Origin: Lachnospiraceae bacterium
Lineage (GTDB): Bacteria > Bacillota > Clostridia > Lachnospirales > Lachnospiraceae
Direction: 5' to 3'
Assembly (NCBI GenBank): GCA_030526405.1
Contig: JAUNCZ010000021.1
Span: 1,740-48,284 of the forward strand
DNA: 46,545 nt
Both the position numbers and the translations under genes were made by a program. A model generated the notes under the pieces. That model searched no databases. It worked only from the letters and a program-made list of their open reading frames with translations, and was not told the DNA's origin. This document shows positions 18,260 through 30,987 of this stretch, in pieces. Positions within the stretch are counted from its first letter, which is position 1, and every line of letters begins with the position of its first letter.

Positions 18260-18640
18260 ATGGCTAAAAAGAAAGCGGCAGTTTCTGCCAACTATCTTGA
18301 TTTTGTTCCGGTGCATAATCCGGAATATGAATATAAGATTGATGAGGAGGGCCGTGTAACGATCCTTCAGGAAAACAAAGGTTTATTTAACAAGATCGCT
18401 CAGATGTTTTTCAAGAAACCTCGGATTTCCAATATCCATCTGGACGAGATGGGAAATTTCCTGTGGCCGCTGATGGATGGAAAGAGATCCATTATGGATC
18501 TTTCAGTACTGGTGAAGGAGGAGTTTGGTGAGAAAGCCGAGCCTCTGTACAACAGACTGGTCCAGTATGTGAAAACACTGGAAGCGTATGGATTTATCTC
18601 AGTGGAGAAGACTCCCACCTCAATAGGCGGTGAGCATTGA
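18260..18640 (+). CDS. PqqD-family (RRE-like) protein
   Basis: A 126-residue protein with a PqqD-like winged-helix fold in its C-terminal ~90 residues: ISNIHLDEMGNFLWPLMDGKRSIMDLSVLVKEEFGEKAEPLYNRLVQYVKTLEAYGFIS. PqqD domains bind precursor peptides in RiPP pathways, but many stand-alone copies have unknown roles. The start at ATG 18260 (MAKKK) follows GAGGAATCC. No radical-SAM enzyme or precursor peptide is visible nearby. Its partner is the OPT transporter 15 bases upstream, an association worth noting. A perfect 11-bp hairpin at 18692-18720 follows. Confidence 0.8.
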   Translation: MAKKKAAVSANYLDFVPVHNPEYEYKIDEEGRVTILQENKGLFNKIAQMFFKKPRISNIHLDEMGNFLWPLMDGKRSIMDLSVLVKEEFGEKAEPLYNRLVQYVKTLEAYGFISVEKTPTSIGGEH

Positions 18641-18691
18641 CAAATTAGTCTCCGCAAGCGTCGACTTGAATAAATTGAACAAATGAAATAG

Positions 18692-18720
18692 AAGGGGCTG
18701 TCGCACTAAGACAGCCCCTT
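18692..18720 (+). terminator. hairpin after the OPT-PqqD operon
   Basis: AAGGGGCTGTC (18692-18702) and GACAGCCCCTT (18710-18720) are perfectly complementary around a 7-base loop. No T-run follows directly; a second hairpin (18730-18762) with a six-T run stands ten bases further and may complete termination. Confidence 0.75.
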
Positions 18721-19117
18721 CCCAAATCGAGAGATATCTGATGTGAAACATTGGACGTCTCTCTTTTTTATATACATGCCAGCTGGTGATGACTATGACG
18801 TCAGACATGCTTCGTTTGCTACTCGGTCCGCGCGCCTATTATGCGCCCTACGCGCTAATACTCGCCCTTGCGGGCTCAGACAGTGCACTTCGGGCGCAAG
18901 CTAGCGCGTTCCCTCCTTACGCAAGCCTTGCAATCGTCTGCCTTACATAGTCACCACCAGCTGGCATGATTTACGTTTTTGAGACTTCTTTTTGTTTTTT
19001 ATCAGATATAGTTCGATTTCCGCCACGCCCGATGCCGGGGCAAGTTGTGCTAGTCTCTACTTTTTTGCTTTTTTTGCACACAACAAAAGCCAGACTCCGA
19101 AGAACCTGGCTTAAGTG
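18715..19117 (+). repeat. ~400-bp composite intergenic repeat A, copy 1
   Basis: Aligned by eye with 30594-30987. In order: CCCCTTCCCAAATCGAG; a terminator-like hairpin (18730-18762) followed by T6; the 194-bp core (18775-18968); a T-rich stretch; a segment closed by GAGACT (18981-18986) and AGTCTC (19052-19057); and a final hairpin AAGCCAG / CTGGCTT (19087-19112). The outer parts differ from copy 2 by substitutions and small indels. The core does not. No credible gene was found here. Confidence 0.92.
18775..18968 (+). mobile_element. 194-bp inverted-repeat-bounded core element, copy 1 (MITE-like or structured RNA)
   Basis: Bounded by 23-bp inverted repeats (18775-18797 and 18946-18968) that differ at one position and start CATGCCAGCTGGTG. 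Nested pairs inside include CAGAC (18802-18806) / GTCTG (18936-18940), ACGCGCTA (18850-18857) / TAGCGCGT (18902-18909) and GCCC-TTGC-GGGC. The whole can therefore fold into one long rod. A 53-codon frame (18789-18950) starts in the left and stops in the right inverted repeat. It is identical by eye to 30653-30846. No transposase lies in the window. Confidence 0.75.
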
Positions 19118-19173
19118 GTATATTTTTAACTGTTTATGAATAATAGATACAAAAACCTTTCTGCAAAAAGAGT

Positions 19174-20957: not shown

Positions 20958-21041
20958 CGCGAGCAACGAGCCAAAGTCCGTGCTTGCACGAAACTGTGGC
21001 GACTGCCGCAATAACTTGAGAAACTCTAAGTGTTTCTCAAG
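20958..21041 (+). repeat. intergenic repeat B, copy 1
   Basis: CGCGAGCAACGAGCCAAAGT and the following ~65 bases recur at 41811-41895 with few changes. It contains CGTGC-TT-GCACG and the perfect 10-bp pair CTTGAGAAAC / GTTTCTCAAG (21015-21041). It sits between the permease leader and the 3' end of xdhA, and may help end xdh transcription. Confidence 0.85.
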
Positions 21042-26900: not shown

Positions 26901-26989
26901 GTGGTTCATGAGCAAGTAGCGAAGGGAATTGCGAATGTCCGCTTTACCTCATGAGCAGTGACAAGGCGGATTACAAATGTCCGCTTTAC
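26901..26989 (+). repeat. family C hairpin repeat, tandem pair between selD and yedF
   Basis: Two units of about 42-43 bp: TCATGAGCA at 26906 and 26949, and AATGTCCGCTTTAC at 26934 and 26976. The first matches the minus strand of 2868-2914. Each can form a hairpin (GCGGA / TCCGC in the second). The 185-base gap has no gene; a yedF promoter or processing site may be here. Confidence 0.85.
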
Positions 26990-30593: not shown

Positions 30594-30987
30594 CCCCTTC
30601 CCAAATCGAGAGATATCTGATGTGAAACATTTGATGTCTCTCTTTTTTTATACATGCCAGCTGGTGATGACTATGACGTCAGACATGCTTCGTTTGCTAC
30701 TCGGTCCGCGCGCCTATTATGCGCCCTACGCGCTAATACTCGCCCTTGCGGGCTCAGACAGTGCACTTCGGGCGCAAGCTAGCGCGTTCCCTCCTTACGC
30801 AAGCCTTGCAATCGTCTGCCTTACATAGTCACCACCAGCTGGCATGATTTACTTTTTTGAGACTTCTTTTTTTGTTTTTTATCAGATATAGTTCGATTTC
30901 CGCCACGCCCGATGCCAGGGAATTTATGATAGTCTCTACTTTTTTGCAAACAACACAAGCCAGATTCCGAAGAACCTGGCTTAAGTG
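30594..30987 (+). repeat. ~400-bp composite intergenic repeat A, copy 2
   Basis: Same order as copy 1: CCCCTTCCCAAATCGAG, terminator-like hairpin (30609-30641) followed by a T-run, the 194-bp core (30653-30846), the GAGACT / AGTCTC segment and the final AAGCCAG / CTGGCTT hairpin near 30957-30982. It starts 6 bases after the lyase stop codon and ends 18 bases before the cupin gene stop, so its hairpins may terminate both. No gene was recognised. Confidence 0.92.
30653..30846 (+). mobile_element. 194-bp inverted-repeat-bounded core element, copy 2
   Basis: Identical by eye, and in length, to 18775-18968, in the same orientation. Inverted repeats are 30653-30675 and 30824-30846. The 53-codon frame is present at 30667-30828, its ends again inside the inverted repeats. 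No flanking target duplication is obvious, because the neighbouring bases are themselves part of the larger repeat. Confidence 0.75.

Follow-up and report, generated by a model that had tools for sequence, protein, structure and literature searches.

REP sequences, which are 20–40 bp long, and the BIME and TIRYT TIR repeats described with them (PMC3733652) are intergenic palindromic families known from several phyla, as single units or as inverted pairs, and in these respects they resemble the element considered here. The element differs from REP/BIME in its larger size and in having a conserved apex in place of a conserved tag at one end, GTAG or CGTC at the foot of the hairpin. Bacterial MITEs are likewise short, non-coding and multicopy with inverted ends, which in the element are those of core B, and in one relative genome, G362, the likeness extends to target duplications and an empty site. 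Unlike a MITE, however, the element forms a single long foldback throughout. Its apex is found again in other phyla but its arms and ends are not, the arms appear homogenised within each copy, and no parent transposon was found.

Two other published systems resemble the apex and the arms. A DNA oligonucleotide in which a GNA or GNNA loop stands on at least two G-C pairs forms an extraordinarily stable, nuclease-resistant mini-hairpin, d(GC-GNA-GC) (PMC4686876). The apex of the element has the same kind of loop on at least two G-C pairs, but the published mini-hairpin is a synthetic molecule, whereas the apex is a recurrent genomic sequence with conserved, GA-containing flanks whose stability is predicted. 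Its two G-C pairs, moreover, were demanded by the search pattern. In RNA genes, evolution by template switching (the quasipalindrome process) produces stems whose arms change together while the loops are conserved, and GNRA loops are enriched at instantaneous compensatory changes (PMC8794818). The arms of the element also change together while its loops are conserved; the cases described there are RNA genes with short stems, whereas here the arm is about 45–50 bp, the repeats are multicopy and mobile, and switching is the putative cause.

Architecture and copies of the element

I will refer to the whole stretch of DNA analysed, 46,545 nucleotides from a Lachnospiraceae bacterium, as the window. 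The initial annotation had described a 194-bp element present twice, at 18775-18968 and 30653-30846, with 23-bp inverted ends and the capacity to fold into one rod. The identity of the two copies is complete, the inverted ends were found on both with one mismatched position, and the 194-bp strand does fold into a single rod (RNA MFE -92.4 kcal/mol, z -8.2, matched by 0 of 200 shuffles). The element is real, but 194 bp is too small for it, since both similarity and pairing extend further. Positions 18720-19019 and 30599-30899 are alignable along their full length, and the former (copy 1) is a single 300-nt rod, with an RNA MFE of -127.5 kcal/mol and z of -10.6, or z of -7.4 when folded as DNA. 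A non-coding foldback of about 300 bp, A-B-A', has the 194-bp repeat as its core, B, and its outer segments are also paired.

All features are given on the plus strand. To the left of copy 1 lies a boundary hairpin, GGGGCTGTCgcactaaGACAGCCCC (18694..18718), common to most copies of module A and flagged by the terminator scan as terminator-like on the minus strand. Module A itself (18720..18769), delimited from the sequence and the copies, is a hairpin followed by T6, and I read it as a putative terminator; the scan gave it no flag, the hairpins flagged around copy 1 lying at 18690-18722 and 19087-19112, both on the minus strand. Core B (18775..18968), a palindrome seen in sequence, fold and copies, has CATGCC as its foot. 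The apex, ACTCGCCCTTGCGGGCTCAGACA (18860..18882), was placed by the consensus of its class and reads on the opposite strand TGTCTGAGCCC-GCAA-GGGCGAGT, the loop being of GNRA type. Segment A' (18981..19019), the complement of module A by the fold of 18720-19019 and by pair counts, is followed by the right boundary segment CCGCCACGCCCGATGCC (19020..19036), the boundary segment right of A' being CGCCACGCCCGATGCC; CCGCCACGCCCGATGCC marks this end too in a genome of another genus, G320. The outermost boundary segments bear no inverted-repeat relation to each other, whereas the ends of core B pair, as do A and A'. Alignment with copy 1 places copy 2 at 30599..30899, with its core B, the same letter for letter, at 30653..30846 and its apex at 30738..30760.

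Both window copies stand, as annotated, after an ORF on the plus strand, and each is followed by one on the minus strand. The 53-codon frame reported inside the core is present, with its ATG at 18789, but indels break it in the second subfamily described below, and the reading of the element as a short ORF was dropped. Two other repeats were noticed in the window. One (18593-18671) has several matches in the congener G001 and overlaps the 3' end of a 130-codon ORF upstream of copy 1, so the end of that ORF may fall within the repeat. The other is a dispersed repeat of 44 bp (26904-26947), 82–87% identical to many sites in the same congener.

Nine near-complete copies, each about 300 bp, are dispersed over seven contigs of the source genome and fall into two subfamilies of three and six. 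Subfamily 1 consists of three near-identical copies, the two of the window and one on contig C97. The six of subfamily 2 are 85–86% identical to positions 14-184 of B, and a copy from this subfamily is also one 300-nt rod (z -11.0). Fragments are found of B on C11 and of A joined to a truncated B on C78, and there is one additional diverged tip on C83. Among the matches listed, module A occurs without B in 15 more places, four of them cut by the end of a contig. Five contigs (C3, C48, C67, C79 and C121) end in or beside module A, which may make the copy count of the family too low. The initial annotation had named two outcomes that would speak against the element, namely its absence from related genomes and a single recent duplication with no other occurrences. 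Core B indeed has no match in two other genomes of the same genus; on the other side are the seven further copies in the source genome and the relatives in other genera.

Other repeats accompany the copies. Of the six subfamily-2 copies, five contain an inserted second repeat, module C, about 95 bp long, which lies to the right of A' in four and between A and B in one; this hairpin repeat, GCGAGCAACGAGCCAAAGTCCGTGCTTGCAC..., also stands alone at 20958-21040 in the window and is seen at L020-L024 and L032. The hairpin AAGCCAGACTCCGAAGAACCTGGCTT, at 19087-19112 in the window, lies 3' of several copies (also L020-L022, L027 and L041), and where B is missing it comes directly after module A (L027/L029, L041).

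RNAalifold was given eight aligned copies, the one bearing module C between A and B being excluded. Its consensus has 81 pairs, 11 of them changed on both sides, with module A paired to itself and not to A'. With the copy 1 fold imposed on the family, 86.5% of cells pair, as compared to 30.6–46.1% when the fold is slid. Cells with both sides changed then number 18, against 8.2 in shuffles; the pairs so changed number 6, which is not above shuffles, and subfamily 2 breaks 10 of the 24 A-A' pairs. The two subfamilies amount to one comparison, and covariation in the window family is for that reason weak evidence taken alone.

A recurrent hairpin apex

A DNA search of 397 genomes of the family, the source genome included, found relatives of the element in four more. 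In two of these, 118–127 bp of the core are alike at 74–76%, while in the other two the likeness covers only about 30 bp around the tip, which sits atop long hairpins with different arms. The recurrent form of the apex is AACTC[GC..GC]TCARACA; the arms change in distant relatives. The pattern AACTCGC-N(2-14)-GCTCARACA, which itself demands the closing GC/GC, has 419 matches in 67 of the 397 family genomes, as compared to 4 for the reversed pattern, and in 20 genomes chosen for having tips the same general pattern gives 254 matches versus 2. The three subfamily-1 copies, including both in the window, have TACTC in place of the consensus AACTC and stand outside the 419; they do match a narrower tip pattern.

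That narrower pattern has at least 120 matching stretches among genome contigs of several phyla. To judge from record titles, the matches listed include Zoogloea, Denitromonas, Acidithiobacillus, Thiobacillus, Geobacter, Desulfobacterales, Nitrospirae, Armatimonadetes, Oscillospiraceae and others, and some (L052, L091, L161) look like chance hits within genes. For the 120 listed tips with enough flank, pairing of the flanks beats all 50 right-flank shuffles in 84 and does not in 36, and the median duplex energy is -30.9, versus -14.3 for flanks taken from different tips. An exact pattern for the right arm of the core had no match in genome contigs. The tip class is present far above chance. 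No description of it was found in the literature searched, which omits most subscription journals.

On the opposite strand (here the G.A strand) the tip reads TGTYTGA[GC..GC]GAGTT, with GA opposite GA; its middle is variable, yet mostly self-complementary. Loops were compared in 113 listed family tips, at most 10 per genome, with three genomes counted separately. On the G.A strand of these tips, GNA makes up 51 of 66 triloops and GNNA 20 of 31 tetraloops (16 GNYA versus 4 GNRA), and the remaining 16 tips have longer loops. A GNA, GNRA or GNNA loop is found on the G.A strand in 71 of the 113 and on the other strand in none, nor did the other strand carry one in any tip set examined. GNA accounts for 13 of 13 triloops on the G.A strand in G362, for 13 of 16 in a tip-rich genome, G283, and for 110 of 119 among the cross-phylum tips listed, where one loop base is fixed by the search pattern. 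Within the window family, the GCAA loop of subfamily 1 on the G.A strand fits the mini-hairpin type and the CTAAA loop of subfamily 2 does not. To the eye, the arms in several phyla bear further, repeated TC/TC mismatches, which are GA/GA on the opposite strand.

The apex is predicted to act as an extraordinarily stable mini-hairpin of single-stranded DNA. In the folding program neither strand of the bare 19-nt tips was unusually stable, so this step depends on the published properties of such hairpins (PMC4686876). The cap would then fold as DNA in the cell.

A side observation concerns the length that arms may reach. Palindromes with arms well over 100 bp each are usually unstable in E. coli. 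At L048 (G017:C72), a tip element has near-perfect palindrome arms, each well over 100 bp.

Complementary arms and insertion in relatives

Relative genome G362, with 62 tips and elements of about 290 bp, allows arms to be compared across many copies. In 17 copies, the 45-bp middle arm shows 97.8% identity within a copy and 67.9% between copies, whereas the inner 75 bases show the opposite trend (76.7% within, 89.7 or 87.2% between). In the 16 that were aligned (one was excluded for an insertion), both sides have changed in 54 of 119 pairs and in 38 of 48 middle-arm pairs. Pairing is 94.1%, as against at most 49.1% when slid, the fold having been derived from one of these copies, and the middle arms, which pair at 90.5%, pair at 65.8% on average (at most 73.0%) once right arms are swapped among copies. 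In 21 copies from G283, the outer 25 bases agree with the right arm of their own copy at 86.5% and with the right arms of others at 68.6%; the corresponding values are 89.6% and 71.7% for a set of ten copies drawn from Acidithiobacillus and an unclassified proteobacterial bin. In all three groups the arms drift between copies and stay complementary within a copy. The apex is conserved, as is the inner part with its mismatches. Insertion into the loops of unrelated, pre-existing hairpins was also considered; the outer arms in Acidithiobacillus look mutually alignable by eye, which makes diverged copies more likely, and the idea was dropped.

The arms have probably been rewritten by template switching, although covariation by itself is equally compatible with compensatory selection. 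The latter would hold that the palindrome is mobile but that selection on structure, together with compensating mutations, keeps the arms complementary, with no special part for template switching. Covariation alone cannot separate the two. The disparity within and between copies of the G362 middle arms leaves few half-compensated pairs, however, and this weighs against compensation, as do some G283 loci where the paired arms continue 60–85 bp into locus-specific sequence. At one of these loci (L272), a terminator-like hairpin is present on both sides as an inverted duplicate, an arrangement that resembles A and A' in the window. I regard compensation by itself as a possible explanation, but an improbable one.

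The initial annotation offered a MITE-like element as one of three guesses, and it is the best of the three: the copies are dispersed, and G362 has inverted ends, 8-bp duplications and an empty site, though no target duplication was found at the window copies. The ends of the G362 element, GTNACNGTTCA, are definable by their inverted GT.. pattern in 15 of 17 fetched copies, and 14 of these 15 are flanked by 8-bp target duplications (9 of them exact, the criterion being at least 6 identical bases of 8 in the flanking 8-mers), as compared to 0 of 210 mismatched pairs. The congener G048 has, at one site, the uninterrupted sequence with a single copy of the 8 bp, and at a second the element is also missing from G048 and the junction has diverged; the listed contamination is 11% for G362 and 8% for G048. 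Insertion in G362 is of the transposon type. No target duplications were seen for the window family or for G320, which has the boundary segments of the former, no direct repeats at a consistent offset appeared in seven other element groups, and no empty site of the window family was found in congeners G001 and G002. That the window copies, too, moved by transposition is probable by analogy with G362.

As to what moved them, the analysis turned up no mobilising gene for the window family, and clusters of neighbouring ORFs, which are unannotated, showed no obvious shared mobile gene. IS66 transposons resemble the G362 element in their 8-bp duplications and GTA.. ends, which were seen at 2 of 9 loci examined with a GT start required; on this ground an IS66-type enzyme is a candidate for G362 and no more. 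They are unlike it in their terminal sequences, and tips were not found beside the IS66 loci examined. A search by end pattern, confined to the IS66 family, found no pair matching the G362 ends at 12 IS66 loci, and IS66 as direct parent was dropped on account of those missing ends. In five of the 13 genomes examined, one of them G283, IS66 gave no match. The long inverted repeats at another locus, L325, are a duplicated IS66 gene. An origin in phages or plasmids was also dropped, as the window element has no match in either. A G362 element has none in plasmids, the narrow tip pattern has one match in a viral contig, and an element from Curvibacter matches one Variovorax plasmid record over 63% coverage.

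Competing explanations and their consequences

Of the other two guesses in the initial annotation, a structured RNA element would be a 3' untranslated region or small RNA whose rod-folded transcript is under selection. The RNA folds are very stable, a plus-strand gene precedes both window copies, there is covariation in G362, and GNRA loops are stable in RNA as well (PMC8794818). Rfam, however, gave no match at gathering in the window, three weak matches far below gathering in region 18640-19140, and only tRNAs at 18 related loci. The loops, moreover, are mainly GNA triloops and GNYA rather than GNRA. Nor is orientation clearly biased: by crude ORF calls, the upstream ORF of the nine window-family copies is on the same strand in five and on the opposite strand in four, and tips classified against their flanking genes divide 23/18/15/11 of 67. 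With tips lying on both strands of the G283 chromosome (13 and 13, the origin not being mapped), this argues against a role on the mRNA strand and lends no support to a lagging-strand mechanism. The guess of an RNA gene is left unsupported, and I consider an RNA element unlikely.

The remaining guess, a REP/BIME-type repeat family mobilised by a hairpin-recognising RAYT (Y1) transposase, fits the intergenic position of the hairpins and the inverted pairs about 204–235 bp apart found in some genomes. A Curvibacter genome (G407:C1, the source of L130) has 30 tips with ten such pairs, 204–235 bp apart and BIME-like, and G170 has inverted tip pairs at two loci. Y1_Tnp (PF01797), with matches in 4 of 7 genomes searched, has none, however, in two that bear tips, G099 and the source genome (94.8% complete), and mobilisation by a RAYT was dropped for the latter. 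The size is also wrong, the element being about 190–330 bp (core 194, foldback 300) against the 20–40 bp of a REP, and the equal division of tips between the strands of G283 counts further against the idea, which I judge very improbable.

The explanation I prefer is that the element is a mobile palindrome, non-autonomous, that is capped by a conserved DNA mini-hairpin and has arms homogenised by template switching, a reading to which I give an even chance. When the strand bearing TGTYTGA[GC-GNA-GC]GAGTT becomes single-stranded, the apex would fold first, as the published properties of mini-hairpins suggest. The arms would close next, and a polymerase may at times switch template in the hairpin, so that one arm is recopied from the other. 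Rewriting of this kind would let the arms drift between copies and yet stay complementary within each copy. A transposase that makes 8-bp target duplications, for which an IS66-type enzyme is the candidate, would have moved the relatives in G362. For the window itself, I hold with moderate confidence that the palindrome of about 300 bp, non-coding, is a member of a cross-phylum repeat class that shares a hairpin apex, and that it has likely spread in the manner of a MITE.

A broader proposal is more tentative. In a repeat class that spans phyla, the only universal part may be the stable single-stranded DNA mini-hairpin with its tandem G.A pairs, and this part may serve as an active nucleus that shuts the long arms, drives their rewriting and protects or licenses the palindrome, thereby sustaining elements with unrelated arms and ends. 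If this is right, one short DNA fold would be the common denominator of hundreds of hairpin repeats in several phyla, and the arms of the elements would be natural recorders of template switching. For the study of mutation they would offer ready-made test loci present in many copies, and annotation would gain a simple rule for recognising a kind of non-coding repeat outside Rfam. The question it poses is what recognises or tolerates one apex from Clostridia to Betaproteobacteria.
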